Of a stretch of DNA of 64,000 bases, positions 1,250-61,000 are shown piece after piece. Each line of letters opens with the position of its first letter. The stretch's first letter is position 1. The position numbers and the translations under genes were made by a program. Below the pieces are notes generated by a model, which made no database searches, had not been told where the DNA came from, and saw only the letters and a program-made list of their open reading frames with translations. Source of the stretch: Marchantia polymorpha subsp. ruderalis (taxonomy: Eukaryota; Streptophyta; Marchantiopsida; Marchantiales; Marchantiaceae); assembly GCA_037833965.1 (NCBI GenBank), contig AP031357.1:2562001-2626000 (forward strand). The letters run 5' to 3'.

Positions 1250-2192
1250 TTCACATCACTTACACTTCAAGTTTAAGCTCAAAAGAAGTACACTTTGAAA
1301 CCAAGGAAAAAAGACATACCTGATTTGGGCGTACAAAATACCAGATTGCACGGTTTCAAGCTGAAATTCTTCATTTCCTCTACACTTGTGGATAATTTCA
1401 GCACCAATTCATCCCCACGTCCATGTGCTTTGAACCTTGGGTGATCAATACCTTTCACTACGTGACAACTTCATTCATGTACTGCAACTGAACAGAAACA
1501 TAAAATGTTTGTTAGTGTGATTTTAGGAGGAGGAAAAGAACTGGTATTGAAGTCTAAAAAAGTTCCACGTTTGTTGGCTCGGAAAACGTTAACACAAAAT
1601 ACGAAGCAAATAAGTCATCTAAGTCGCGCAGCAGTTGGCAATCTTGGAATTCTAGAACATATCGTTGGCAATCACGTAGCAATCCTCGGAAATCACGTAG
1701 CAGTCAAACCCGTCAAAAAAACAAAAGGAGAACAAGGAGAAATATTCCTATTCCAAATCTTGAAATAGTGAGAAGCAAAATCTATCGAGCACTTACCTAA
1801 CCTTGAAATCTTGAACTTAGAACGTTGCAAAGTAGATTGTTTTTTTTTTTTATAGAGAGTGTCACGTAAAACCATTTCAATGTTGACACATAACACGGTT
1901 AGTAACCGTATTCACTTGTGAGCTGTAATCTTGAATACATGTTTAATTAATACGTACATGCATGCACGTATGTATTAATTTGATTGAGGCATGCCCATGG
2001 GCATGCGCCTGTGCCCTTGTGTAATAACCCACCAAAGGCTAAAACTGCAGTATGGTGGTAAAAAGATCGAACCCACAGGGACAGAGGCAACACACAGAGT
2101 AAAAAGTGTCACGTTTAACAGACTTTTGTAGAGCTTGAATTCTCAGGCGACTGTCACTCCCAGAAATACTGCAGTGCTCGACTCGGAGGCTC
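1250..2192. other. Spacer without recognisable gene
   Basis: Short open frames here (for example 1505-1768 on the plus strand) show no domain and have low-complexity composition. Part of that frame is a small internal repeat around 1660-1705 ('gcaatc.cgtagcaatc'). The stretch includes an 18-bp perfect palindrome at 1989-2006 and a poly(T) run near 1840. I see nothing else to annotate. Confidence 0.6.
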
Positions 2193-2277
2193 GACTCGGA
2201 GGAGGATGCTCGACTCGGAGGATGCACAGTACACGCTGTACTGTGCATCCTCCGAGTCGAGCATCCTCCTCCGAGTC
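2193..2277. repeat. Perfect inverted repeat, 40-bp arms, 5-nt loop
   Basis: The arm at 2193-2232 and the arm at 2238-2277 are exact reverse complements, separated by 'acgct'. The arms are built from a smaller motif, 'ctcgactcggagga', which also occurs twice just upstream (2176-2192) in direct orientation. A (CA)n run follows at about 2284-2302. As RNA or single-stranded DNA this would form an uninterrupted 40-bp stem. It may be a structured terminal region of the adjacent minus-strand element, a microRNA-like hairpin, or a recent slippage or foldback event; the sequence does not decide between these. Confidence 0.9.
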
Positions 2278-3005
2278 ACTCAACACACACACACACACAC
2301 ACCTGAAACTGGCAAAAGCACAACTCGGAGGTCGGTCAGGACCTCCGCTTCGGATTTCAGGGGGAAAGTGTCTCAAAAGTTCACTCAGAGGTTCTGCAGG
2401 TAGTGACTCCCACTCCGGCTTTTACTGCCCTTCCGCCAGGAACTAGCGTAGGGAACCCGGACTGGACTTCCCACTTCGGAACGAAGCCCCTTCATACGCC
2501 GTGGACGTCACCCTCGACTCACATCAAACGCAGGGGGTACAGGCCCGACTGAGAACTTAACTAAGACACAATCCATTAACACACACACACAACCTGAATT
2601 GCAAACCAAGGCTTACACGAAGTAATAAAACTTCACTTTGGCATTCAGGGGAAACTTCCCGTAGGAGTACAATCATGATATGTCACTCGAAGGAGTAAGG
2701 GGGAACTGTTCAAGTCTCTAACTCGCAACCGGCTCTGAGCATCAGAAATCACCCGCAGGTGCAGATCCGCACTACTCAAGTCTCTAACCGGGTACTAGCT
2801 CTGAACATTCAGCCGAAGGCCTTCAACTACAACATACGGTAACTTCGCTATGCTGCAGCTTCTCTACGTGGTGCCAGGACCAAAATGCACAGACACGCCA
2901 AGAAAGTGAGTTCCTGATCTGCACTTCCGAAACTGGAAGAGTCCCAAGGCAAAACGCCTTGATCTACTTTATACCCTCAAAGGTCCTAACTAACACTACG
3001 CTATC
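2278..3005. other. Non-coding tail beside the coiled-coil pseudogene
   Basis: This stretch lies 3' of the minus-strand frame at 3006-5781. It holds (CA)n runs at about 2284-2302 and 2580-2592. A diverged direct repeat, 'caagtctctaac' followed by 'gctctgagcatcag' or 'gctctgaacattca', occurs near 2710 and 2777. It could be the 3' UTR or terminal region of that element. No protein is supported. Confidence 0.4.
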
Positions 3006-5781
3006 CTATCTACTACTCGCAACACTTGCACGAAACCAAACTACACTACTGCACTCTGCAGATCCGGTGCTGCGTCTCCTGTGCGCCGGACTGCCTCGCT
3101 CTCTATCTCTACCTTGCCAATCTTCCGACCGGCTGCGCAAGCCCAGACGCCGGAGGGCTGCAGTCACTTCCGACTCCAAGTGCGCCATAGTGTCGCGCGC
3201 ACCCGACAAGAAGGATTCTAATTTCCTTGCTACTCGCCGCCGACTCCGACTGTCACCCTCCGTCAATGCCGCCGCCCGAAGCTCGAACTCCCTGAGTGTG
3301 ATCTTCTCTTGAGCTGCCACCTCCCAATGGGCGTATCCTTTTAGACAGTGAGTCACCCGCGTCGCCAACTCTTCTCGCGCCCGGCAGCTGCCTTCCACCT
3401 CTGCTAGCTGCATTTCCGCATCCGCGCGCTGCGCCCTCAAATCCGCGCACTCGGATTGCAAGTTGCGCAGCAACTCCTCATCCTCCTTGCGTGTACTTTG
3501 ACTTTCTTCTAAGGCGCGCTTCTGGCGCGCAAGCTCTTCTGCTAAGATGCGGTTTTGTCTCCGCTCTTCCTGCAATTCCGACTCGATCTTTGCCCGTATT
3601 AGCTCGGCATCCGCCTGGTTTTTCGTCGCCGCATCCTCCCTCTGCTGTTGCAAGGTTTGGTATAGCTTCTGCGTGACCGCCAGGTGCTGTCGGAGGGTAG
3701 CGTTCCTATCCTGCAATGTTTTGCACCTAGAGGCCCAGGTGGCCACCTTGCTCCTCGTCCTGCGCTTGACAGTCTCTACGTAAGACTGCGGTTTCCCGGT
3801 ACCCGAGTACTTGGATGTCTTGCGATCCAGATAGCGCAGGAGTGGAACTATCTGCTCGCACAACACCCCTGTTGGCGTTTTCTGCACAGAGTCCGCTTCC
3901 TGCTCTTCCGAGCTCGTCTCATCCTCCGTTTCGAGGATTTCAGTCGCCACCGAATCCCTTGGCGACTCCCTGGAACCTGTGTGCGCAGCAGCTTCCGCTG
4001 CGACTGCCGCTCCACTCCCTGCTAAAATATCCAAGGCAGTGGGGGATCCCACTGCTTAAGCCCCTGTTCCAACTCGATCTTCGGTCTCCGAAGGGGTCGA
4101 CGCCGTAGTGACTTTTGTCACCTTTGCACCGCCCGCTTCTGCTGCCTGCTCTTCCGGCGCGATCTGCGCGGAAGGTGTCTTCGCTGGAGGTGCGTCCGCC
4201 GAAGGCGTCCGCACACTGGTCGCCGGCCCTGTCCGTCTCGCAGTCGGCGAATCTGGCCGACTCTCTGTTGACCGACTCGCAGTCGGCCGACTAGCAGGTG
4301 TCCGACTGGCAGTCGGATACACCCTGCGCGTCTTCACTCCACTTGGCCTGCTTGCTGGCGGCGTTTTCCCAGAAGTGCCTTCCGCCGAAGACGACCCTCT
4401 GAGGGTTGTTGGCTCGTCAGCCAAACTCTCTTCAGCTTCCGGCTTGCTGTCCGGTTCAACGCGCCGCTCCGTCGGCCTTCCTTCCGTTTGTCGACCTTCA
4501 GTCGCCCGACTCGTAGTCGGCCGACTGTCAGTCTGCCAGACTCCGGTCCGGCGTACTCCGCCGGACCGAGTACGCCCGGTCTCCTCAGTACTAGTTGGCA
4601 TTTTGCGTGCCCTCTGTTTCGGTCGGCTGTGAGGCTCGTTGGTTGGCCGACTACGAGTCGGCGCAGCTGGCACTTCCGGCTGCCTGTCCTCATGTCTCTC
4701 ATCCCACTTCCGCTTTCGCGGAACGCGGTCACTTCGACGTTCTTCTGCTGCCCTTGCTGGGGGCGGAGCCGGAGGCGGACTGGCAGGGGCCTCGTCCGGA
4801 TCCGTGTCTACTTCGGCCTCCCGCGAGTATCTACCTGGATAGCTCCGGGTCAGCAGCGGAAACCGTGTCCACTCTGAATTTGTCAAACATCCCATCGTCC
4901 GATAAAACACAATCAGGTAAGGCGAAAGATGATTGAGGGTTCCTCCTCTCTCTTCTTGCGCATGTTGGCGCGTCACCTTCCACAGGAGCCGTGCCCAATG
5001 CACTGGAGCTCCTGACAACACTAGCTCCACAAATCCTACTTGCCAAATTATGCATGTAAGCGGTCTTGGTCGACTGCAATATCTGCAACAATGCAGTCGC
5101 GACATTTCTCCGCAATCGATCTTTGTAATCCCGTGTCCGGAAACCGTTCTTGGGATGCCTGGCAACTTTGAAAAGCTCATTGTAGGAGATTTCTTACTCC
5201 TGGGACACCTTCACGCTATCGGCCTCGAAGAGGAGATACCCTTCCTCGCCGGCACACCTGCCCAACACCTACGCCCAATCACAAATGTCCCACCTCTTTG
5301 GATGTGGACGGAATCCGCGTGAGGGCTTGTGTCTCTCCTGCAGATACTCGCGCACCATCTCCGGACATGTCCAGTTCCAACCCCACAGGAGGAAATCGAG
5401 CTTCAGCCCTATCAGCACATCTTGGAATGCGCGTAGACCGATCTGCGGCACCCTGAGTGGAGACACTCGCAGCTGGGGGACCTTCGACATTGTGTTTCCT
5501 GCACACACAAACGTTCTCCCTTCCGCTCGCTCTCTCACAATCGCCGCTGAGCGTCGGCCGCTCAAGTACTGACTGTTGTCTCTCTCTCTTCTCTCGCGCT
5601 CAAATTCGCTACTCGCAAATTCTCTCCAAGGTCTGTCAAGATCCTTGTGCAACTCGTCTCCGCACTCTCCCCTCTCACTGCAGGTCTCTCCGCCCTTGCG
5701 CGAATTCTTGGAAGCTGGAAATCGCAAAATCAAGAATGAGAGAATGAGACTGGAGAGCAGTCTTTTCTTCTCCGAATTCAA
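3006..5781 (-). pseudogene. Repeat-associated coiled-coil protein, broken frame
   Basis: A single ancestral minus-strand frame of about 925 codons can be followed here. The first part (5781-4834) is interrupted by TAG at 5269-5271 and TAA at 5194-5196. An extra T near 4832 shifts the frame, and the second part (about 4831-3006) is cut by TAA at 4056-4058. The N-terminal third contains a conserved-looking W/F-rich block ('LDFLLWGWNWTCPEMVREYL'). The middle, about 4100-4830, is Ser/Arg/Thr/Pro-rich with many SRPT-like repeats. The C-terminal third, about 3300-4000, is a long heptad-rich coiled coil ('SKVATWASRCKTLQDRNATL', 'RQKRALEESQ'). The start may be the Met at 5781 or the internal one near 5492 ('MSKVPQLRVS'). 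I recall similar proteins as abundant repeat-encoded hypotheticals in a liverwort, but no enzymatic domain is visible and its role is unknown. A gag-like structural role is only a guess. Confidence 0.6.
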
Positions 5782-7169
5782 GATCGTCCAACGTCCTTAC
5801 TGGTTACAATTTACGCAGCCGGCTATACGGCCTAACGGTTCGCCCTTGCATGCTCGAATTCACGTCTCCGCACTGCGCGCATTCGCATGCGTGAATGTTG
5901 AATTCTCCCGCCGCCATCGTCTTCCGGACTCGAGTTCGCCGCAGTGTATACGTCGGCTATGTTGTCTTTTCCTAACCCGACCATCACCGGAGGCGTGTCG
6001 CCGCTGGCGTGTTCCTTATCCGTCGGCGCCTTGCTGGAGGCGCACATCCAGTCGGCGCGAATTACGCCGGCGCGTATTCGTACCGCTTCTTTTGTCCGTT
6101 CTGCCTCGTCCATTGCTGACGGCGCATATCCCGCCGGCGCAAATCATGCCAGCGCATCCGCCTATCAACGCCACGTCAGAGGCGTACATCCGGCCGGCGC
6201 TTTTCTTCTGTTGCGCAGCCGCCAAAGGCGCTTCCGACTCTGAGTTGATTTCCTCCCATGAGCGCGTGATTCAGGCGCATCGCCGAAGGCGTACGGGAGT
6301 CCTTTCCGACTGTGAACCCTAGCGCGAACGGCGCATGTCCGGCTACGAGTTTTCCGATGCTCATAACTTCTTTGTCCCTGATCCATCTCCAACGTTCTTG
6401 GGCTCGTTAGGACGAGCGTCCCGAGCTCTTTCCAATGCAACTTCAATCAATTGGAAATACCGTGTATTCCGATTGTTAGGAAGGTTTCCCTTTCCGCGCT
6501 AGGGGCGCATCGCCGAAGGCGCACTCATGGTCGGAAGCCTTCAGAGGTCCGTGCCGTTCTTCTGACGTCTTTAGCAAAATCTCCTCCGGAGATGTCTGCG
6601 CCGGCAGCGTAGCTTCCTTAAACGCTGGAAGCGCGTGAGTAGAGACACCTCAGAAAAGGAGCTTTTGCCGAAGGCGCCGAAGACATTTGGCGCTGGTACA
6701 TCCGACTTCGCGATTCTTCGTGACCTCGTGACGATCTCCTCAATTCACTCTATTTAACGTACCCTTTTCTAACTACAGACACTGCTTCGGTACTTGTTTT
6801 CTAAAATTGTTTAAATTCTGCAAAAAAAAACAAAAAGCGTGTTACCACACCTTGCTCGGGGGCATACCTCTTGAGGATGTGCCTCCAACTCTAGCTGTCA
6901 ACTTATTGTAAAGGTGAAAACCTGAGCAAACCAGGTAATCAAATTTGCAGCCGTTGCGGTGAGAAGAGAGAAGGCAACACTATAAAACAATATATCCTAG
7001 ACTATATATACTCGTTCACTTCACAAATATTTCAACGAACCTATATTATGATCAATGCATTTCTCACATGATATACAAAGCGTAAGTCTTTTTCCTCACA
7101 ATGTCAACGAGCAAATATCTTGCCAAAGACCTTCTGCCTTGTGTATTTCAATTTTTTTCAATTAGCCGC
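5782..7169. other. GC-rich then AT-rich spacer, no gene
   Basis: From about 5900 to 6730 the sequence is GC-rich and repeatedly shows 'gccggcgc'-type and 'gcgcatcgccgaaggcg' motifs (about 6274, 6504 and 6666). This looks like the degraded 5' leader of the minus-strand element at 3006-5781. From about 6780 to 7169 it turns AT-rich. A 60-bp stretch at 7011-7070 is shared with 30259-30318. No protein-coding or RNA gene could be supported. Confidence 0.45.
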
Positions 7170-9766: not shown

Positions 9767-10590
9767 TCATGCCCATATTACTCCTCTTTGGTGCTTTGCA
9801 GGTTTGTGACATATGGCACGTCTGACCACAATTCCAACATTCGCCTTCAATGAGCCGAACCTGAGATTTAGCCTTATTTTTCTTGCCTTGGTCATTTGAT
9901 TTGACATGTTCATGTTCTGATTCTGACCATCCTTACTTTGGGTTCTGCCCCTCTGATGCTCAAAACTTAGGGCTGATCTCGAAGTGTCTAAACTTGAACT
10001 ATTGATCGAACCTCTTCTGACCTCCTCAGTAAAAACCAAACTAACAACCTCATTAAGTTTTAACTTTTCTTTCCCTACCGAATTACTGATTGCAGTAATT
10101 GTACCTTGCCACCTCTCTAGCAATTGATAAAGAATCAACAAGGCTTGAACCTCGTCATCAAACATGATAGTGACAGAGGCAAGTTGATCAACAATCGTAT
10201 TGAACTCACTAAGATGTGTCATAAAGGAAACCTCTTTTAGCATAGACAAGTTGAATAGTTTTTCCATAAGATGTACCTTATTCGCAACAGACAGTTGCTT
10301 GTACATCTTTTTCAGCGCTTGCATAAGCCCCACCGTCGCTTTTACCTTCAATATGTTATGGGTGACTAGTTTGGAAAGGGACATGAGAATTACTCCCAAC
10401 GCCTTCCTATTCAAAACGTCCCAATCCTCATTGGACTTTCCTCTTTTCTTCCTTATCTTTACTCAGCAGCGGTTGGTAAAGATACTTCTGATACAGATAG
10501 TCCACTATTTGCGTCTTCTAAATTGTGAAGTCTGATCCGTTAAACTTCTTCATCTTATGCTTGCCATCGGCAGAATCCATAGCTCCCACG
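9767..10590 (-). pseudogene. Copia-2 gag
   Basis: The N-terminus 'MKKFNGSDFTI' (about 10560-10525) is the usual start of this Copia gag family, with a possible upstream Met near 10587. A stop and frameshifts follow. The main open part, 10414-9767, carries the gag core ('LKKMYKQLSVANKVHLMEKL', 'MTHLSEFNTIVDQLAS'). Its C-terminal zinc knuckle is out of frame ('ICHKPAKHQRGV' is its last half). It would have formed the virus-like particle; it is broken. Confidence 0.8.
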
Positions 10591-11639: not shown

Positions 11640-12452
11640 AGGTGCATTTGCTAAATTTTTAGCTGGTTCCTAAGTTGATTCATACGATGGATAGCCTTTC
11701 CATTGAATCAAATACTCTACTTTGGGATATTTATGACCTCGAATACGTTTCTTGAGTATCTTTTCTACTTCAAACTCCTCATGATCTGCTATCAAGGTTA
11801 AAAGATAAGGTGGTGCTGGTTGGTTGGTGAAATGTTTTGGTCGTGGTACATGTTTTTGCAATCGTGACACATGAAATACTGGATGTATTTTCATATGTGA
11901 CGGAAGTTCCAACTTGTATGACACTTCACCAACACGCTTCAAAACCAAAAATGGACCAATGAACATAGGGTTCAACTTTGGTGTTCCTACAAGAGACAAA
12001 TTCGTTGTAGATAACCAAACATGATCTCCAACCTCAAAAATCACCTCTCTACAATGAGCATCGGCATGCTGCTTTTGCCGATTTTGAGCTATCACCAACT
12101 TTTCCTTGGCCTGATGTAGTACTCGGTGAATATGCTCCACAAATTCGTTGACTGCTACAACTTTGGTCGAAAACTCCTCTCCTTTGGGAAGTCTCATCAA
12201 ACTTGAAGGAGTTATAGGATGAGCTCCATACATAAGAAAAAATGGAGACACTTTTGTTGATGCATTAACAGAATTGTTATATGCAAATTCCACAAGTGGC
12301 AAAAGGTTGTCCCACTCTTCTTGCTCTTCTAATGTGAATGCTCGTAGCATATCCTCTATGGTTCTATTTGCCCTCTCAGTTTGTCCATCAGTTTGAGTGT
12401 GATAGGCTGTTGACATTGCTAGTTTTGTTTTGAAAAAACTAAAGTTTTCCAA
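11640..12452 (-). pseudogene. Gypsy-1 integrase C-terminal half with chromodomain
   Basis: The frame opens just before the third catalytic acidic residue of the DDE core ('YHTQTDGQTERANRTIED', Glu of QTER). It continues through 'FAYNNSVNASTKVSPFFLMY', the 'GDHVWLST' and 'KLNPMFIGPFLVLKRVGEVS' barrel, and 'HPVFHVSRLQKHVP'. It ends in a chromodomain ('FEVEKILKKR', 'VEYLIQWKGYP'). TAG near 11689 replaces the Trp that normally follows in 'YESTWEP', so the last residues of the chromodomain are lost. This is the chromovirus signature; such domains bind modified histone tails and can direct integration. Confidence 0.92.
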
Positions 12453-12770
12453 AATAAACTAGTGAAGTGAGTACCTCTATCCGTGATTAACACTTTGCTT
12501 AAGCCATGATTCACAACAACTGCATCTAGATACAATTGAGCTAGTTGTGGAGCTGTTACTGTTTTTGTGGTTGGCCTGATGTGAATCATCTTGCTCAATT
12601 TGTCCACAAAAACCACCACTGAATCATGTCATAACGAAGTTCTTGGTAACTCACATACAAGATCCATGGTGACATGTTCCCACCGTTGTTCGGGAATACG
12701 AAGAGGCTGTAATAAACCTGCTGGTTTTTGATTACTTGTCTTGTTTTGTTGACAAGCAACCCAACAATGG
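12419..12770 (-). pseudogene. Gypsy-1 integrase N-terminal part
   Basis: From the junction at about 12770 leftwards the frame reads the tail of the HHCC zinc finger ('ACQQNK', 'NQKPAGLLQPLRIPEQRWEH'). The first DDE Asp follows ('VTMDLV') and then TGA near 12633. The next open part is 'VVVFVDKLSKMIHIRPTTKT', with the second Asp in 'LITDRGTHFTS'. A one-base frameshift near 12430-12450 leads into the C-terminal half. The beginning of the zinc finger is missing because of the foreign block. Confidence 0.85.
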
Positions 12771-13277
12771 TACGTTCTCCAGAATGTATGTTGGAGAACA
12801 TGTCTGCTGCACTTGGAGATGACGTAACACTCGCATCATCTCCCAAAACATCCGAGATCTGGGATCATGCAACCCTGTCCCATGTCCAGCGCGTGTGTGT
12901 CCGTGACATGGCCAGCCCGCAATCACCATATCAATATGGCCAATGCGGTCAAGGTCTGGCGCCCCTAGCAACGAAATGTCTGAAGGCAACGCCTTCTGGA
13001 ATCCTCGAACAGTTGATCGCGGCAATAACGAAGGAAAACGCCGCATCAACTGTGCAACATGTCGTGAAGAGACTCGACGTGCAATCTAGTCCTTCTCCAC
13101 ATACAAGTATCTCCGTACGAGAATACCTGACTGCAACACCGCAGCCAAACCTGTGCCGATCCCACCAAAAAGATCCAGCAAACAAACACCCTCTGGGGAA
13201 TACTCCCATGCAATAGGTGTAGTAACTAATGGAGACAATGCGATAGAACCACCAACTAGCCGATCAACTGAAGACAT
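12757..13277 (-). pseudogene. Retroelement C5-cytosine DNA methyltransferase domain, truncated
   Basis: The frame carries C5-methyltransferase motifs in canonical order. Motif I, the S-adenosylmethionine site, is 'CLLDLFGGIGTGLAAV' (about 13184-13137). An acidic residue 'YVEKD' follows at about 13100. Motif IV is 'VIAGWPCHGHTRAG' (about 12926-12885), with the catalytic Cys codon at 12906-12908; the usual PCQ is PCH here. Motif VI is 'ENVP' (12768-12779). TAG at 13086-13088 interrupts the frame, and the sequence ends right after motif VI at the junction with Gypsy-1 integrase. Motifs VIII-X and the target-recognition region are therefore missing. It lies in the same frame as the protease upstream, separated from it only by a TAG. 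An intact protein would transfer methyl groups to DNA cytosine. Subfamily is unclear (motif IV resembles the GxPCQG type rather than the DRM/DNMT3 type). The domain call is firm; the copy is dead. Confidence 0.9.
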
Positions 13278-13943
13278 CTATGGCTCTGCTAGTAAAGAGG
13301 CTTCACTCCAAGACTTTTTCACCAACCTATCAACCACCAACTGTGGTGCCTGGCACAAACTCCACAGTGGAACATCTAAGGGTGAAGTCACCGCCGCTGT
13401 GAAACTCACAACCTCCTCCACATCCTCGTAGAGTGAGGTATCGTCGGCAGACATGTTCTCCTCCAACAAGTCATCGGGCCAGGTAAGCACTCCGCTAAAA
13501 CCCGCAACAGATGCCAAGACCGCTGATGAAGATCCAAGAGGTCGATCCCGAGAAATAAATCTCACTAGCAGCTCGCTCAGACGTACATCTCCGGACTGCC
13601 AACTAGAACGATATGCGGCAGTCTCCGTCCAATAGTCCATCGGAAAGCCCATCGGGTATAACACAACTCCACCAACAAGCATATCATATGACTCTGCTGA
13701 TGTAACCACAACACGAACTCTAAACTGCGAGCTATCATGAGGGTGATCATGCCTCAACTGCACCGCTATGCTCTCCCTGGTCATAAAGTAAGACCTATCG
13801 CTGGCGCCAACAAGGGATGTCTGGATGTGGCATGGGCAAGGTTCCAACTCTGACCTCCGAATACCCAAACTAATGCATGCAGCCTTGCCCAACATCAAGG
13901 GCTGTGCACCAGAATCCAACAAAACTCTGGCTGGGATATACAC
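13278..13943 (-). pseudogene. Aspartic protease region of the methyltransferase-bearing retroelement
   Basis: The frame opens just after the gag stop and starts 'VLLDSGAQPLMLGKA'. That is the catalytic DSGA box of a retropepsin followed by the usual hydrophobic turn; a later 'YDMLVGGVVLYP' fits the second conserved strand ('xILGxxxL' type). The remaining ~110 residues form a linker of unknown role ending at TAG 13278-13280. Gag, protease and methyltransferase share one frame, so this was probably one polyprotein cut by this protease. Confidence 0.8.
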
Positions 13944-15995
13944 CTATCCAGTAGAACTCACTAACCGAAATATACCACTTCGGTTGTCCATCATACATAC
14001 ACCAGGAACAATACTCTCGCGATCAATGGCTGGGCGAGCTGGTAAGAACTCCATCCTCGCCGCTTCGGCCTGCCAAGTCGTCTCCTCGAACAATGTAGAC
14101 GTTGAGGATGAGTCCTCAACCGTATCCTCACGTATCTCGGCACTCGTAGCAGCGACTCTCCCACGCTCACACGATGTGGCTGCTACCCGAAATACTAGAG
14201 CCAAATCAATACCAGAGTCTATCAACTCCGTGGCTGAAAACAATGAAGATCGCAAGACTGAAGTGGCCATCCGCATCACTGCACTAGATGGCACGTTTGA
14301 ATTCACAACAGATGATGTAAGAACCTCAGTTCTCACTCTAGTGTCACTAGGCGGTGCAGGTCTCATAGATGAACTACTACCCACCTCTGACAACAAAAAG
14401 GATTGGGGAAGTCTAGACTGACGTCCACCCTCACCTCTCTTAGGGTCCAACTCCACAATCGCACCACGCGGCTCATAAGTGCGAGCACCATCTCTGGTCA
14501 CTGCAACTGATGCCTCAACCTGTGCTGCACTGGCCAAATAGGAGAAATCCTCTCCCTCGTAAGATGTGGAAGTGCTCGCCCTCATACCAGCCATAGCAGC
14601 AAGCCTCTTCTCCAACTGCTCAATCCAAGCAGCCATAGCGCTCTCTATTGCGGAAGTAGCACTCGCTGCGGTACGCTCAATGGCACCGGTACCTCTACCA
14701 CCTCTACCGCCTCTGCCACCTCGGCTTTGTGGAGCATCACCTCCATGACCTCTACCTCCAGATCTCACCTCAGGATGAAGGTCCAAGCAACGCTCTCGAG
14801 GGTGACCCGGTCGATGACAATGATCCCAAGTCACTTGTGCCGGCTGTGGCCTAGCATGTGGAGTTTGTCCCTCTCGCTCCTGGGGACAATCCTTCCTCAT
14901 ATGACTACCTCCGCATGTCCAACATGACGGTCCCTGTGGTTGGCCCGAAAATGAAGGCAGTGGTGGCCGCGCACTAGGCTCTCTGTGACCTGAAGGATGT
15001 CGTGTATGACCTCCACGACTCCCACTACCACCACCCATGGGGCGAGATTGTGCTGTGCTATGTGGGATACGCAAAGTAGTGGTCGTGTCCCTCGCAAATG
15101 TAGACGTCACCACCCTCTCCTCCACCATGTTAAGCTCAATCTTCTCCAAAAGAGCAAACACATGGGCTAATGTGGGTGATGAGTCGCTCATGAGAGTGGC
15201 ATCACGCACTCTCTGTCCAGAATCCAATATCCGTACTGGACAGCTTGTGCCTCAGTCACACCGTGAGTAACCGAGATTAGCCGTCGAATACGAGTGTATG
15301 CCTCACGAAGACTCTTAGTAGTCTTTCGCTCAAACTCCTGGAGGCTCCTCAACTTCTCTGTCTTCACCCCCGGATAATTCTTCCTCAATCTCTTGAAGAA
15401 CTCAGGAATGGGGCTAAACGAAGTTACGCCACTAGCATCTCCCCTCGTGCTGCCACCAGCAACGCTAATAGTACCGCTGCTGGTACTGGTACTTGTTGCG
15501 CCAACTGCTTCACTGGTACCCTCGCGGATGCTAGTACTCACGCCTCCACTAATGCCAATACTCGCACCTCCACTGGTATCCACACCACCCTGGGTAATGG
15601 ATAAGTAGTTTGGAGATCAATGGCGCCTCCATGCATCAATCTCCGCAGCATAATCTCTGCCAAACTCATGATAATCGTCCATGGGAGGCCCGTCCAAATG
15701 CTGAAATAACCCCTTCCATGCAAAGAAGGGTGTAAACAACGTGGGGTTACGCAGAAACTGCATATCACACCACGTGTCGAACTCCTGAAAAAAATCATCA
15801 AACTCAATGGTGCCCAATGCACCAGAGTAACGTCGAGGGCCCTTCACGGCCCCGTACATCCCGTCCATGTCCCAAATCAATGGGGTTGGAACACCAAACG
15901 ATATCACCACCGAAGACTCTGTGTCTGCAACACTCTAGTCCTCCTCCGCAACAACTGGCACGATAGGTGAAGGTAGCTGATACCTCAACCCACTC
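13944..15995 (-). pseudogene. Gag of the methyltransferase-bearing retroelement
   Basis: The N-terminal part (about 15995-15220) includes the gag-like 'FDDFFQEFDTWCDMQFLRNP' and 'FKRLRKNYPGVKTEKLRSLQ', with TAG at 15935-15937 and TGA at 15617-15619. A one-base shift near 15220 moves into the frame that runs on to 13944. That frame carries 'SPTLAHVFALLEKIELN', a CCHC zinc knuckle 'CWTCGGSHMRKDC' (about 14885-14925) and a second degenerate knuckle ('CHRPGHPRERC'). An RGG-rich stretch (about 14700-14740), a short helix 'AWIEQLEKRLAAMAG', and a Ser-rich linker into the protease follow. Its job would be packaging element RNA. The start is not fixed because the 5' end is degenerate. Confidence 0.75.
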
Positions 15996-15999
15996 CGCG

Positions 16000-16765
16000 T
16001 AAATCCACCGCGGTCCTCAACAGGATCACTAGACTGCTCCGTGATGACGAGACCTCAACTGGCACCACTGCCCGATCTCCACCCAATAACCCTATCCGCC
16101 CCTAACGTCGTGCCGCACTGAGCTACTGTAGCCCTACTAGCTAAGGGGTATGGGCAACCTAACCTATCATCACAGCAAGAAGACTTTCACGTTCTACTGG
16201 TCATCACTCCAGTCTCACCGTGAGAGAAACATAGATAGACCGGCCGGTGATCAAGTCTAGCCTCCTATCGACAGCACACAAGAGTAAAACTACTCCGGAA
16301 ATCAGCGTCACCCCTACACGGGCGCGCACCAAGAAACAAGACTGAAGAGGATCCAAACACAAGAAAACAGCTAGCAACGACTCTCCAGTCTAAAGGAAAC
16401 ACAGCAAAAAACAAGACAACACACAAGGGACATTGCATCGCTTCGCGATCCCGATTTGATCTCCATCGCCCGCCATGAAAGTGGGCCTCCAACGCCTACG
16501 ATGCCATTTTTCATCAAATTGCAAACGACAATTGTTTGAAAACTTTTTCTTTTTTCTTTTTTTTTTCTTCTCTTTTTTTTTCTCCTTCACAGAGGAGTCA
16601 CACTTCCCCTCAACAAACACACTACACACTTAAAGCTCAATATATTGACTACGTCATATATATATTTACAATGCTTTCAACACATCAAGTTTACAGGCAG
16701 TGAGACCAGGTGCAAACTCCCAATCCCTTCAGTATCTCCTTTCTACATGCTACAGTTATTCGCTA
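16000..16765. other. Likely leader of the methyltransferase element, no gene
   Basis: Upstream of the gag frame there is no long open frame. A pyrimidine-rich tract of about 45 bases (16545-16590, poly-C/T with long T runs) is the main feature. On the minus strand it is a purine tract that spuriously encodes a Lys/Glu run. No LTR or primer-binding site could be identified. Confidence 0.4.
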
Positions 16766-17118: not shown

Positions 17119-17160
17119 TTTGCCTTCACACATCAACACTTTACTGTGTACAAGGATTGT

Positions 17161-17458
17161 TCACAGATATTTGTAAACTAAATCTGTAGGGAAAACTACA
17201 AACAGTTGAACTATAAAAACTATTAAAAGATTTTAATAGTTTTAAAGAACTATATACAAATTCACTAGTTAACGTGAATTTGAAACTTTCTACTGCAAAC
17301 TCAGCAAATTCACAGATATTTGTAAACTAAATCTGTAGGAAAAACTTCAAACAGTTGAACTATAAAAACTATTAAAAGATTTTAATAGTTTTAAAGAACT
17401 ACATACAAATTCACTAGTTAACGTCAATTTGAAACTTTCTACTTCAAACTCAGCACTA
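17161..17458. repeat. Tandem duplication of a 149-bp unit, each with a hairpin
   Basis: 17161-17309 and 17310-17458 are almost identical copies. Each contains a perfect 13-bp inverted repeat with a 2-nt gap, aaaactattaaaa / ttttaatagtttt (17216-17243 and 17365-17392). The few differences between copies suggest a recent duplication. No coding frame is seen. Confidence 0.92.
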
Positions 17459-19584
17459 CTGTATTTATCAAAACTGAACGTAATCAAAAGACCTGCATAG
17501 GCCACCTTCGCCTAACGGATCTCCAAACCGGAGGTTGCTGCTATTGGACTATTTCACTATTCCAAACTAAGTCACACCAACTCGACAGTTTAATAATTGA
17601 GATCAGTATACAATATATCCAATATACTGTATTTCCGAATACAAAGTAAATATCCAATATATATACAGAGATATCTACCCACACATTCTTTGTTTTGAAA
17701 CTAGAAGGTGTAGAGTTAGTAGTTCTCCACATATACACCTGTACCACCTAAGGTATAAATTTCCTAGGGAACACCGTCACTCGAATCATTGAAAGTTGCC
17801 GTAAACAATGAAGCGAATGAACTATGTACATCCTAAATGCGTGACAGTCATATTATAAAAGTCACCTTCCAAAATACTTTCTTGACTACGTGCTCCAAAT
17901 CACTGGTCTATATTTACAATTCCGCCATGACCATGCCCATTGCCATCCCGTTCATGTGACATTTACAGGGGATCTGAGCACTGCGCCGTGACTGGTCCTG
18001 TGCTTAGGTCATCTGCACGATACTTTATGCTGCCAGATGTGAAGTTAAATCGGAGCGGGCCTAGGCTAGCTATCTGTCACCCACTAGCATGGAGGCAACA
18101 GCCGCTTCCAGATCACGCAGCACGGGCTTGAATGGAGACGCTGCCAAATTAAACAAAAAAAACTCCCGATACTCCTCAAGTCCTGGTAAGTTCCAAACCG
18201 AAACGTGGAAATCGAGCCGGCTTGAGGCTGAAAAGCGAGGACATATAAAAGGGGAGAAAGTCAGGACTCATCCGCAACTCTGGACAACTGGCACACGCTC
18301 TACGTGAGCGAGCGATAGCTCTCCGTACCAGAGAATCACATCATCGGAGTAGATGTGATCCCATCTCCTCACACCCCTCTTTGGAATCAATCACAGAAAA
18401 CTAAGTCGTGCTTCACACCCTCCTGGCCCCTCTCGCGATCTCGCTCGCTCTACTCTAATCTAAGCGCAGCTGCGGGTGCTGTACAACGATCCAGGCAGCC
18501 CCTCCCACTCCTCCAATTAGCCTAAGAGTAGGATGTATAATGCAGAATCGTACTCCACAAACTCTACAGACAAGCTCCGGTCTGTTGTTGAAGACTATGA
18601 AAGGATGGTCTTAACATAAACTGCACTTCCAATAATGTTGAATCATATCTCAACCAATTAAAGTGAATCGTAAGTTCACGAACGCAGACAGGATTCCTCA
18701 AATCCTCATGTGTAAAATCTACCGGGCTCCAAAATCTCTTCAATTAATCTCGTCAAGTGAAATCGTTGTAACCCTTCCAGTAGGTACCTCTCATCAGATG
18801 GGACTTGTTAAGGTACAGAAGAGAAAAGATCAAAAACCTCATTTGGTACCCGCGAATCCTTAACGACACATAACAACTCTGATTTGCGACTCTAATAGTT
18901 TCTCGAAAAGGTGACAGCTAACCGCTCCAAATATCCACCGCTTGGACACATAAATTACTCCATCTTCACCCTCATCACTCACTCAGAGCACGCCCGCCCA
19001 GGAGAAGACAACAAACAGAAGGAGAGAACAGTCTTCGGAAAAGTCATTTCCGCTCGACAAATGTGATCGACTTATTTGCCCGCACACGACTCGCACGATA
19101 GGATGCAGATACCTTCCCACTTGTGCAAGAGCCCCATTGGCTGCGGACTCCACCGAAAGCTTCTACATCACCGCGCTTGCCACATGCGTCGACACCTCAC
19201 TTGAATCACCTCGCAGTCTTGACATCTAATTTCCGATGACACCACAAATCCAAAGTAGCTTTTGGAGATTGCTTGTAAGTCCTACTTGCAAAAACACCAC
19301 CAGCCGGATCCCTCCTGTGATCAGATCTTATCTGCTTCCGATATCTGGCGGCTCGACGATCACATCGCACACAAACCCGGAGATGACCAAAAAGTACGAA
19401 ACTAAAATCAAAGCAAACACTGCGGACGCCGACAACAATAACAACGCCGACGCCTTCAATCACAAACTCGCACTCTTACTGCAAACCTTAAAACTGTCAC
19501 CAAACTACAGGTTCTAGTGAACAAAATCCTTGAAAAAAAACCCTAATCAACTTCGTCGGCTTCGTGCGACCTCCGACGAGAAAC
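17459..19584. other. Unassigned part of the foreign block
   Basis: No protein domain or RNA gene is recognisable. The segment from about 17930 to 19500 is moderately GC-rich, with scattered short frames that show no conserved motif. It could be LTR or untranslated sequence of the methyltransferase-bearing element, but no paired terminal repeat was found. Confidence 0.4.
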
Positions 19585-19828
19585 CAGTTCTTCGAGTGAA
19601 AAAAACGGAAGATTCTCCACTGGAATTCCCGTCGGCCAATTACCCTACTGGCAACAAACCGTCACCGTCACAAACATGAGTCAAGCCCAACCCACTTCAC
19701 ACTCGGAGAATCCAGGTTGACGCAAAGGGGAAAGTCGCTCTACGCTCCCAACGCTTTCAGGCTCGACTCGAAGAACTAACGTTCTTCGAGCCGTCCCCGA
19801 CTGTATACCCCTCGTGAGCCGAACCCTA
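19585..19828. repeat. Dispersed repeat, copy A
   Basis: It matches 57782-58011 in the same orientation over nearly its whole length, sharing 'cagttcttcgagtgaa', 'actggaatt', 'accgtcaccgtcacaaaca', 'ccacactcggaga' and 'tgaatacccctcg'-like blocks. It contains a 10-bp perfect stem, ctcgaagaac / gttcttcgag (19767-19776 and 19781-19790, 4-nt loop). The repeat ends exactly where recognisable Gypsy-1 RNase H begins, so it marks one edge of the foreign block. It may be the end of an unidentified transposon. Confidence 0.8.
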
Positions 19829-20279
19829 TTTCCACGTCTAAATAAAGTAAGTGCCCAAACTGCGTGAGCCGACTCGTAACTACATGACAGGTTGCCAACA
19901 CGATGGCTAACTCCTCCCATCCTGTCGTGTGATAATTTTGTTCCGCCGCCACCAATTCGAGAATAGAAAGCAACTAGATGTCATCCATCCTCCCATTCTT
20001 GTTGAAGTATGCCACCTACTGTTGTACCTGATGCGTCAGTGGCCAACTTGATAAAACGGTGAGGATCATACCACTTGAGAATAGGTGCGTGTAACAAAGC
20101 ATCTTTCAATGCTTGAAAAGCTAACTCTTGAGCTGTTCCCCATCTCTATTTTTGACCTTTCCCTAACATGGAAGTCAAGTCATAAGCTAAACTAGCAAAA
20201 CCTTTCACAAATCTACGATAGAATCTAGTGAGCCCTAGAAAACTCTTCAATTGAGTTTGATTTCAGGTGCTATCCATTT
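19829..20279 (-). pseudogene. Gypsy-1 RNase H, interrupted
   Basis: A frame shifted relative to the RT reads 'LKSFLGLTRFYRRFVKGFAS' and 'FQALKDALLHAPIL', then the RNase H start 'IKLATDASGTTVGGILQQ' (catalytic Asp in ATDAS). After another shift come 'AAEQNYHTTGWEELAIVLA' and 'FGHLLYLDV', where it breaks off at the dispersed repeat. A TAG near 20143 and a TGA near 19986 occur. The second half of RNase H is absent. Confidence 0.8.
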
Positions 20280-57262: not shown

Positions 57263-57781
57263 TTTTCAGGTTGTTAAAAGCTCTTAAATAGTTGTTTGGG
57301 TTAAAAGGCGCTAGCAGCTTACGAAAATTGTGTAATTAAATTAAATAATGGTGCGTTCAAAGCTTAATAAAATTTAACTACACAATTTCGTTAATTTTTT
57401 ACCTCCTTTCTTAACTCATGAATTTGCAACTTTGAAAATAACAAGATGTAGTTCTGAAATATCAAGATCTTTTGGAAGTTTCTCGATAACAAAATTACAT
57501 TGATAAAATAGTGGATGAATATAAGCAACTTTTGGTGAACATCAACTTTGCCATGCTTTAAATCGTTTGACAAACATATCTCATCTGATTTTAGTGAAGC
57601 TTGGACTAATCCAAACATTAAATTTTTTGATGAAATTCTTCGGAGAATTAGCATGTCTGTCATGCGAATACGTATCGCCATACACTCTACATCGTTGACA
57701 TGCTACTCACATACATATACGCACACATACACACATATAAGGCGCGAGAGAGTACACACTCAAAATGTCACAACTCGAACA

Positions 57782-58011
57782 CAGTTCTTCGAGTGAAATG
57801 AACGGGAGATTCCCCACTGGAATTCTCGTCGGTCGTTTACCCTACTGGTAAAACCGTCACCGTCACAAACATAGTCAAGCCAAACCCACTCCACACTCGG
57901 AGATTGCAAGTCGATGCTCCCGTGCACTACTCCCAACACGTTAGGCTTGACTCGAAGAACTTACGTTCTTCAAGCCGTCCCTGACTGAATACCCCTCGCG
58001 ACCCAAACCCT
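57782..58011. repeat. Dispersed repeat, copy B
   Basis: The same ~235-bp repeat as 19585-19828, in the same orientation. It keeps the inner inverted motif in a diverged form (gaagaac / gttcttc around 57954-57970). Here it lies in plain spacer between a CA/TA-rich microsatellite (about 57708-57740) and AT-rich sequence. Boundaries agree with copy A at both ends, which suggests a defined element. Confidence 0.8.
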
Positions 58012-61000
58012 AAGCTCGATACTATTTTTAGCAAAACATCAAAAACTACATGACATGTCCATTTTCAAACACTGCCATTTTAGAAAACAATTTTTCAATG
58101 CTGAAATGAGAAAAATATCTTCATATATATATTAAAAAATACACCCAATCTCTCGAAAGTGTAATCAAATTTAAATATTTTTGAAGAAAGAAGAGAGTTT
58201 TGTATGTTCTATCCTTATTTTATTTTGATGATAATCCTTATTTTGATGATAATCCTTATTTTGTTGAAATCCAAAACATAAGAAAAATTTCTTGTAAAGA
58301 GATGGCTTCTCATATTCTGTTATAGGGTTGGGGAATGATCATGGAGAGTAGGTAACCATCACCGTTTTTGTTCTTTCAGTTAGTTTGAAATTTGAATTTG
58401 TTGATAGTTATTGTTTTCTTTCTAATTTTTGACTTATTATTTTTGATACAAATGATATTGTGATATTTGAGAGTAATTCATTATGAAATGTTAGAAATTT
58501 ATTCCAAATTCTGTTAAGTAAATCTAGCTATTATCAGTTAGATAACTGCACATAATGGACATAAAACGAGTTGATTGAAAGTCTCCGTAACACAAACTAA
58601 AACTAAATTCACCTCACAAGTTGTTGAATTTACCATCCGTCGCTGGAGTTGTCATGGAAACAAGTATGTTCAATTTGAATGTCAATGTACCATGTTGCAT
58701 CTCTCTTTTCTAAGGGCAGATCGAGGTATCTTAGAGCCAGCATACTATTTTCTGCATCAGAAACTATTGTGTCTTACAATACGCCATGCAAGCTATTCCA
58801 AAGACATGGTTTCGATGTTTCCTCCATATGCATACGAAAGGATCACCATTGACAGTAGCTTGTCCAAGGGGAAAAAGAAAATGAGAGTAGAGAACCGATA
58901 CTCGACGTAAAGAAAAGCAAAATTAATCATGAGATGACTTGTTGCCATGAAGATTGCTGCGACGGAAGTTGAATTTAACAATCACTTAAAAAATGCTTGA
59001 ATATGGTCACGTATTTCGGCAAGGATAATTATATACTTTATGTGCCTAATCTCATGGAAGTAATGACATCTATCTTATGTGCGAACATGAAAGTTCATAT
59101 TATTCTTATCATCCGTGATTAATATTTTCCTTCAATATTTCCCTTTCCTATAATTTCTTTTCATGCTAATGACTATGTTGATAATCTTCTCAAGCTCACG
59201 GGAGTCGTAAGCCTAAAAAATGTAATATCATAACTTTTATCAAGTAAGAAGTCTGATTTCAATCCAAGTAAGATTTTGAATATTGAACTGATTAATGAAC
59301 CCTATATACGTAATGAACTGATTAATCAAAATTAATATGGAGATGATGCGATCATGTAAAGAGAACATTTTCACAATTTCTGAAGCTATCAATTGATTTT
59401 CTACATTTGACATCTTCAACACAAGCTATTTTGTACTTTGCTAAAATCTCTTTGGAAATTGTGAAATATGATGAATTATTTAAATCTAATTATCATTGTA
59501 TTTTTTATTTATTTGTGATTTGAAATTTGAATATTTAAATTAATCAAAAAATGGAAATTTTGAATTGATATGATTGATTATCTTCAAAAAAAAATTTAAT
59601 AAATCTTTTTAATTGATCATTTATCAGAAAAATTTGGATAAAAAATTTGCACAAAATTTAGAATTATATTATTTGCTTCGGCTTTGAGTTTATATACAAG
59701 CAAAGCAGCGCAAACAATCCCTACTTCCTGCATGGTTACTGTTTGGCAAGTTTTTTACTTTGACGCAGTCTATCAGGTCATCTTCAAAGGACCGTGTAAT
59801 AGGCGCTCGGGGGTTGTGCCTTTCCGGGTTTGAAGAAGCTCCGAAGAAAGTCAGGTTAGAGAGTTGTGCTATGACTTTACCCACGCCCTTGGCTTTAATC
59901 TTGTGTGATAAGGTGTGTAGGGTAACACTACAGTACATAGGCCGCCACGCGACTTATTATGCTATAAATTTTTACCGAAATGGTGTCTGTCACAATTTTT
60001 CAAATATGCATTTAGAGTGGTTATTTTTTTTATGCTTGCACATTTTGAATTTTTGACTTCAATATAAATTATATTTTCTTCAAAATCTATTAAAAATTTA
60101 ATCAATATTGAGATAAATGTGATATTTTGAAATTTATGCATAAAAAAAGAGTCAAAATATTTCAATTTCAAACAGAATTTATACTGTGATCAGAATTTAT
60201 GCCAAGAAATTTTTTTTTCTCTAAGCTTTAAAATTGAATGAAAAAAAAAAGCTTATGTAGAAATTTGAAATCATTTGCAATGATTAATTAAATTCTATGA
60301 TGATCTATTTAGATTTTCTTCTATTTGATTTGACAATATCTTCAGTAATGTTGTTCATAACATGGTTGAAAAGAAATAACCTGTAAAATTTGAAGAAGTA
60401 TCAAATATCTTATTTCTAAAAGGTCTAACTTACTTTATGATTTTACCAAATAAACAATGAGTTGCAATAAATGAAAAAAAAGTGAATGTAAATATAAAAG
60501 AAATAAATGACAACTCATATGTGTATTTAGCTTGTCATATTGCCAAATTATAAAAAGCTCCTAGTATAGAATGATTTCCATGTGACATATTAATCGTATT
60601 TCAAAATACTCAGACCTAAATTGCTGAACATTTCCAGTATTCAATTAAAATCTGCCACAACTAAGTTTGATCTTAGGATTTTTGAGACTAAATTTCATGT
60701 TTATGCACATTTCATAAAGTAGTTCGTTACATCCATGATAAATCTAGATAATATATGTGCTGTGACAATCTATTATGAGAAAATGATGACAGCTTGTTAT
60801 CTTTAAGGTTGTTGTTATAAAAAAGTAACTAAAGATGATTATTCGTTAATTATTGAGATGTTCAAACTCATCACATATGACTTATAATTTTTGAATTGTA
60901 GTATATACAAGCATGGTTACCGAGTCGCCTACTTTACCTATTGATTTATTCTTGTATCACTTGACGGGCTCCTTCCCGCCCTCTTTGCAATATTATTCTC

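Follow-up and report, generated by a model that had tools for sequence, protein, structure and literature searches.

The stretch analysed here, referred to below as the window (64,000 nt of Marchantia polymorpha subsp. ruderalis, contig AP031357.1, positions 2,562,001 to 2,626,000), carries on its minus strand a dead, truncated and chimeric copy of a retroelement that encodes its own C5-cytosine DNA methyltransferase (MTase). This copy belongs to a family with many open copies in the same genome, which appears to have been active recently. The preferred reading, to which we assign a probability of about 0.6, is that of a Ty3/Gypsy-type element with split terminal repeats and a DNMT3-type MTase at the C-terminal end of its Gag-protease, the enzyme being loaded at Gag level, the element's complementary DNA (cDNA) being methylated in cis, and insertion being guided by a PHD finger. 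Most translation would stop after the MTase, so that particles would carry the enzyme at the stoichiometry of Gag, with reverse transcriptase (RT) and integrase as a small fraction. The MTase would methylate the double-stranded cDNA or the pre-integration complex in cis, a new copy would arrive already methylated, and the integrase PHD finger would direct where it inserts according to the state of histone H3.

The architecture of the family was established from intact copies. With an intact MTase domain as query, 119 copies out of 648 candidates were scored in the same genome (89–100% identical), and a search with the PF00145 profile gave 123 scored matches from 290 candidates, a few of these matches being host genes; these copy counts are lower bounds. 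In 27 of the 119 scored copies the match lies, free of stops, in an open frame of 1324–1365 aa. Ten copies, selected because their open frame is long, were fetched together with their flanks, each as two stretches, and in all ten the first open reading frame (ORF1, 1351–1365 aa) ends after the MTase at one TAG that is followed in frame by RT and RNaseH (ORF2). ORF2 is open across both stretches in seven (it is broken in L009, L013 and L025) and the PHD tail is present in every one. The intact order is gag–protease–MTase, one UAG, then in-frame RT–RNaseH–integrase–PHD finger. Pieces of copies L015 and L016 score above the Pfam cut-offs for RVT_1, RT_RNaseH, Integrase_H2C2, rve and the C-terminal PHD finger, and the intact L015 MTase reaches 39.4 bits with PF00145 (cut-off 22); the Pfam gag (E = 0.026) and protease (RVP_2, E = 0.23) models stay below cut-off even in an intact copy. 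By its domains (gag–protease, then RT–RNaseH–integrase with H2C2 and an rve integrase) the element is of the Ty3/Gypsy (Metaviridae) type. The plant Ty3/Gypsy chromoviruses likewise have RT, RNaseH and integrase in this order, followed by a chromatin-reader domain, but in the liverwort element that domain is a PHD finger instead of a chromodomain, and the MTase, the split repeats and the readthrough-context stop that separates ORF1 from ORF2 are further differences. The best PDB profile matches of the PHD finger include CHD4, KMT2D, PHF12, DPF2/3, PHF21A and KDM5B, several of which are proteins that read unmethylated H3K4.

The stop codon that separates the MTase from RT was followed in 45 loci (L001–L048 without the duplicates L005–L007). 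The ORF1/ORF2 junction is held by 26 of them, the other 19 being ten 3' halves, L001–L004 and five of L029–L048. All 26 junctions keep the TAG, and the bases that follow are CAACCA in 24 and CAACTA in one, so that 25 conform to CARYYA. The two subfamilies differ by 12–15% over 400 bases around the stop, including the codon before it and the seventh base after it, yet both keep TAG CAA. Tobamoviruses have UAG-CARYYA as their Type I readthrough motif (PMC5382211), likewise ahead of a polymerase frame; the tobamovirus stop lies within an RNA virus replicase, whereas that of the liverwort element lies between gag–protease–MTase and RT. Because ORF1 ends after the MTase at a UAG in a leaky context, the MTase can be placed on the Gag side of a likely recoding site, and it is probably made at Gag level. 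Among metagenome proteins whose ends were inspected, 15 of 17 (P0010, P0018–P0030, P0238) also end after the MTase and lack RT, although some of these ends may be contig ends. Should a leaky stop indeed dose the MTase at Gag level, this would point to action inside the particle.

Between the two subfamilies, the ratio of nonsynonymous to synonymous substitution rates (dN/dS; Nei-Gojobori, own script) is 0.098–0.172 for the MTase in four comparisons, close to the values for gag (0.149–0.152) and protease (0.140–0.146). It is 0.256–0.286 for the part with the CCHC linker and 0.50–0.92 for the short tail after the MTase. The MTase is thus under purifying selection. These values bear on the strongest alternative, that the enzyme is kept for action in trans, either methylating host or competitor DNA or limiting how far the element spreads and thereby making it tolerable to the host. 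Dosage at Gag level would presumably also provide the cell with much enzyme, and DNMT3-type enzymes are de novo methylases. Slowed transposition is discussed as an option in PMC5890265. However, an enzyme working in trans would serve copies without an MTase as well, and weak per-copy selection would then be expected, yet the MTase has a dN/dS as low as those of protease and gag. We consider action in trans unlikely, though it is the best of the competing explanations; the mechanism that we infer as the best is that the enzyme methylates the element's own cDNA. With such an enzyme the element might hide from, or exploit, host silencing, as the initial annotation of the window had suggested. The observed/expected ratio of CpG is 0.70–0.72 in ORF1 of three copies versus 0.81 in the window outside the element, and does not discriminate.

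The class of the enzyme was assessed with a profile built from ten retroelement MTases. Compared with solved enzymes, it matched DNMT3A at E = 2e-25, DNMT3B at 5e-23, DRM2 at 6e-11, HhaI at 2e-10, tRNA(C38) methyltransferase (DNMT2 type) at 8e-8 and DNMT1 at about 1. An AlphaFold2 model of the homologue P0051 (368 aa; mean predicted local distance difference test score, pLDDT, 85.7), the domain of which is 79% identical to that of L015, was compared with the PDB using Foldseek, and the best 50 of 174 matches (E <= 0.001) were all DNMT3-family entries. By sequence and predicted fold, the element MTase appears to be of the DNMT3 type. The substrate might instead be RNA, either a tRNA or the genomic RNA of the element. 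Such a possibility was raised for SymbioLINE-Dnmt in PMC5890265, and the profile does match tRNA(C38) methyltransferases, but the best of these falls far below DNMT3A and the structural matches also point to the DNMT3 family, so that an RNA target is improbable.

The catalytic motifs are well preserved in the family. C5-MTase motifs I, IV (Cys), VI (EN), VIII, IX and X occur in order in a ten-sequence alignment, in which GW[PE]CQ, EN, AHRxR and ERE are constant; the window copy, being truncated, retains only I, IV and VI. Across 192 full-length relatives, AHRxR is found in 161 and EN[VTAS] in 172. Motif IV is more varied; a crude pattern gave PCQ in 100 of the 192 and ECQ in 34, with the rest scattered or unmatched, and the window copy reads PCH. 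This variation might indicate that the domain lacks catalytic function and serves Gag as a structural or DNA-binding module, but the constancy of the motifs in the alignment, the high counts for AHRxR and EN[VTAS], and the low MTase dN/dS (0.10–0.17) all argue against such a role, which we rate about as improbable as an RNA target. A chance juxtaposition of a host MTase gene with a gag–protease relic, which the broken and chimeric window copy taken alone could have suggested and which the initial annotation named as a finding that would overturn it, is rejected as close to impossible, since the MTase shares an open frame of ORF1 length in the 27 scored copies noted above and the host enzymes are found at other loci: a DNMT3-like gene at C6:12459417, whose split over two frames presumably reflects an intron, and a DRM-like gene at C2:342506 in which the motif order is rearranged.

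The ends of the element are unusual for its class. The 5' end consists of a repeat, A1 (293 bp, beginning TGTCATG), followed by CTCGAAGAACTC, which is identical in all eight fetched leaders and has one base changed in the window copy. The 3' end has the arrangement B(120)-A-B and terminates in CACGACA in six of the ten copies, with an extra partial unit in L020; L010, L016 and L026 have one B, and L028 two diverged B, with no A detected by the probe used. The initial annotation had expected long terminal repeats (LTRs), and terminal repeats do exist, but they are split (A1...B1-A2-B2): the 5' end carries A without B, so the same LTR at both ends, as in Ty3/Gypsy elements, is not found. Split direct repeats of the form A...B-A-B, seen in the six copies, are a feature of DIRS/PAT elements. 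Those elements use a tyrosine recombinase and make no target-site duplication, whereas this one has an rve integrase, and 4-bp direct duplications flank six of the seven copies with both ends in view (the exception is L023), as in the short target-site duplications of a DDE integrase. Where a pair of A repeats is present, the 5' and 3' repeats are 100% identical in three of seven copies, and some insertions are therefore young; the other pairs are 93.4–99.7% identical. The number of 3' A-B units varies (B only; B-A-B; B-A'-B-A-B) in L009/L010 and L019/L020 while the 4-bp duplication is kept, which suggests recombination between B repeats or template slippage.

Searches for protein relatives returned Marchantia polymorpha (up to 94% identity) and Sphagnum fallax, and, among the 120 of 220 matches listed in a further search, Sphagnum troendelagicum, Calypogeia fissa, Marchantia paleacea and Riccia sorocarpa; both searches scored only candidates sharing most words. 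The chlorophytes Monoraphidium neglectum and Cymbomonas tetramitiformis also carry relatives, as do many unnamed metagenome proteins. No sequence named as Klebsormidium nitens was present among the matches listed in the relative searches (in one of them, 120 of 220). Both MTase and RT matches were found in 107 of 269 relative proteins and fall into two arrangements. In type I (15 proteins, Marchantia and S. fallax among them) the MTase precedes RT, and in type II (92 proteins, from Monoraphidium, Cymbomonas and metagenomes) it follows RT, between RNaseH and integrase. P0251 was counted as type I, but its MTase match spans two stretches and it was dropped from the 48-row trees described below.

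Trees were reconstructed from proteins with near-complete domains (87), taking all type I, every second type II and two copies of this genome. With 48 rows, the RT and MTase trees both part type I (8) from type II (40), with Shimodaira–Hasegawa-like approximate likelihood ratio test (SH-aLRT) values of 100 and 97. Path lengths in the two trees are correlated (r = 0.69, a value that none of 2000 permutations reached; within type II r = 0.42, again reached by none). When two host and ten phage MTases, the latter taken from viral contigs, were added as outgroups, 28 retroelement MTases formed one side of a branch (100/99.7), with host DNMT3 outside, although the bootstrap had not settled. Type I forms a clade in the RT tree (100) and in the MTase tree without outgroups (SH-aLRT 97); with outgroups it does not do so in the MTase tree, and the approximately unbiased test does not decide the matter (p = 0.43). 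A single MTase capture for the retroelement clade is favoured by these trees, and no more than favoured, given the few outgroups and an in-group gathered by similarity. More broadly, and tentatively, with the odds somewhat below even, one ancient DNMT3-type capture may have founded a green-lineage clade of PHD-bearing, split-repeat Gypsy elements from chlorophytes to bryophytes, KnitGypsy-Dnmt3 of K. nitens included; the MTase would have moved between Pol and Gag positions, the leaky UAG of bryophytes would give enzyme at Gag level and pre-methylated insertions, and the leaders would ferry spliced host transcripts. Viruses were also considered as carriers, but a scan of viral contigs, which were not searched for RT, gave only distant and mostly partial matches (54 MTase loci, 24–48% identical; L057 and L070 cover most of the domain at 24%), and they were rejected. 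Four type II relatives (P0033, P0038, P0043 and P0050) have a conserved C-terminal region of 200–230 aa after the PHD finger, with DPW and later P motifs, which looks like a degenerate second methyltransferase fold; it gave no Pfam match (P0033, P0038) and no PDB profile match better than E = 0.44.

The closest known system is KnitGypsy-Dnmt3 of K. nitens (de Mendoza et al. 2018, PMC5890265), which according to that paper has Gypsy domains, a DNMT3-type MTase under purifying selection and DIRS-like repeats. Its MTase is said there to sit in the Pol ORF, whereas that of the liverwort element ends ORF1 before the leaky-context UAG; this comparison is by published description. The acquisition in K. 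nitens is called independent in the same source, a view that would need revision if the clade reflects one old capture. The dinoflagellate elements SymbioDIRS-Dnmt3 and SymbioLINE-Dnmt also carry C5-MTases, the former likewise of the DNMT3 type (PMC5890265), but use DIRS (tyrosine recombinase) and LINE machinery instead of a DDE integrase with a PHD finger. SymbioDIRS-Dnmt3, a related retroelement enzyme, is described in that text as methylating CG in yeast. The words PHD, readthrough and Marchantia are absent from the main text of PMC5890265. PMC12344493, which cites PMC5890265, refers to retroelement DNMT3 for streptophytes and dinoflagellates, and PMC5784723 puts the number of M. polymorpha methyltransferases at five. 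No report of an MTase element from Marchantia or Sphagnum, or of a PHD-Gypsy MTase element, was found in the open literature, a scope outside which lie subscription papers, preprints and some citing papers (PMC9033089, PMC8616336). The statement in the initial annotation that such elements are known from dinoflagellates and a charophyte agrees with the hosts given in PMC5890265, but the relatives extend more widely than the one further bryophyte case it had envisaged. A retroelement that carries an enzyme of just the kind used to silence it poses a puzzle, which a young multicopy family in a Marchantia-like liverwort would bring into a genetically tractable plant. Related elements occur in mosses and green algae, and experiments on a young family may thus be feasible in a plant kept in the laboratory.

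Several points weigh against loading at Gag level, methylation in cis and PHD-guided insertion. Dosage at Gag level is not general in the clade, because the type II MTase follows RNaseH. Readthrough at the UAG is proposed from sequence context, the one remaining junction of the 26 has CAACAA, outside CARYYA, and the junction copies were drawn from the better-scoring PF00145 matches and are not a random sample. The target of the element PHD finger is assumed from the proteins it resembles. In addition, KnitGypsy-Dnmt3 gave no methylation in yeast, a result that its authors call inconclusive (PMC5890265).

The 5' leader, 2–4 kb from A1 to ORF1, differs among most copies apart from its last 0.5–1.2 kb. 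Five leaders were searched against their own genome. In those of L009 and L015, pieces that match host loci lie directly side by side, the host stretches between them being gone. In the window leader, nt 17876–18514 (minus strand) match host locus C3:6434327-6435508 in two pieces. These meet end to end in the leader (18147/18146), whereas 534 bp separate them in the host, and they probably represent a captured spliced transcript. An older piece (nt 18746–19160, minus strand) is 81–82% identical to two pieces of C7:15781126-15782275, which are 726 bp apart in the host. Of ten host gaps tested in the leaders of L009, L011, L015 and the window, six fit GT-AG intron borders, all antisense to the element. 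The other four have no such border, including both gaps in the window leader (no GT-AG or CT-AC border was found by script at the 534-bp gap and no GT-AG border at the 726-bp gap). The border script slides over the overlap and by our estimate a chance fit has a probability of about 0.1 per gap; six fits in one orientation are not likely to have arisen by chance. Removed introns that lie antisense would fit template switching during plus-strand synthesis. The host-transcript stretches (L009:525-4371, L015:230-4380, L011 597-4376 on the element strand, and the window stretch of nt 17876–18514) derive from several loci, and five host frames tested behind captured pieces gave no Pfam match. The L013 leader has only short or weak outside matches. 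It occurs at three genomic places (99%), and nt 17300–19580 of the window leader recur whole once elsewhere, at C2:17230639-17232917 (96%); since the same leader is found at several places, its content moves with the element. A leader-encoded protein was considered and rejected, as no Pfam match was obtained with the longest frames in the leaders of L009, L011 and L017. Maize Bs1-type plant LTR elements capture host genes and likewise carry pieces of spliced host transcripts, but in the liverwort element the cargo is in the 5' leader and varies from one copy lineage of the family to another. The combination of a DDE integrase with split repeats, and also the spliced host cargo, raise separate questions on how the element replicates.

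The window copy reaches well beyond the part first annotated, up to the end of its 5' repeat at nt 19889. On the minus strand it comprises A1 (nt 19597–19889, 293 bp, beginning TGTCATG), the conserved 12 nt after it (down to about nt 19586), a leader mostly without homology to those of the other fetched copies (nt 17267–19585), and ORF1 in two frames. The 5' end region (19890-19586) is 90–93% identical to other copies by blastn. The reference for ORF1 was that of intact L015 (1358 aa), with which tblastn placed the gag part in frame -1 (nt 15209–16051, residues 2–282, 87%) and the part with CCHC knuckles, protease and MTase in frame -3 (nt 12759–15233, residues 277–1103, 89%). The initial annotation had the individual motifs right: the CCHC knuckle starts as CWTCGG at 14924-14907, the protease DSGA lies at 13916-13905 (active site DSGAQP, nt 13899–13916), motif I within 13184-13161, motif IV (AGWPC) at 12920-12906 with its Cys codon at 12908-12906, and ENVP runs from 12779, all on the minus strand. 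The proposed profile test also succeeded, as the piece at nt 12732–13085 scores 36.9 bits (E = 3.6e-9) with PF00145. The single continuous frame from gag to MTase that it had read is present in the intact copies, but in the window copy the frame shifts once near 15209-15233 and is interrupted by TAGs at 13946-13944, 13280-13278 and 13088-13086. Similarly, the MTase does lie between protease and RT in intact copies, and complete gag–protease–MTase–RT–RNaseH–integrase copies exist in this genome as it had proposed, though with the UAG between MTase and RT; in the window copy RT is absent and the MTase domain (nt 12759–13214), which begins 10 residues before motif I, breaks off at 12759 after about 152 of the domain's 340 residues. 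At the DNA level, the conserved block 17266-12759 has 91–93% identity with members of the nearer subfamily and 80% with L027, which belongs to the other.

Downstream of the cut (nt 11670–12758, minus strand) follows a foreign Ty3/Gypsy end with an integrase core remnant, SH3_Tf2-1 and a chromodomain; the latter two score above the Pfam cut-offs and rve below (23.7 versus 32.6 bits). A 401-base probe across 12759, for which 40 of 972 candidates in the same genome were scored, was matched in full by the window alone, the other 39 matches being one-sided. Those on the MTase side stop at query position 202 and those on the integrase side (five cases) start at 196, leaving 7 bases in common (nt 12759–12765). 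As no other scored match spans the junction, the chromodomain integrase end is that of another element, and a chimeric family carrying a chromodomain is not supported. A 149-bp tandem repeat in two copies (96% matches; nt 17160–17455) spans the 3' end of the leader. Elsewhere in the window, a second relic of the family is present as a partial A followed by a B terminal repeat (nt 57654–58013, minus strand; blastn 80–94%). The region at nt 2018–6849 belongs to another repeat family, pieces of which (68–95%) also adjoin the MTase element in L012, L014, L022 and L024, and nt 9767–10462 (minus strand) encode a Copia-type gag (Retrotran_gag_2, E = 3.7e-19) of an unrelated element.

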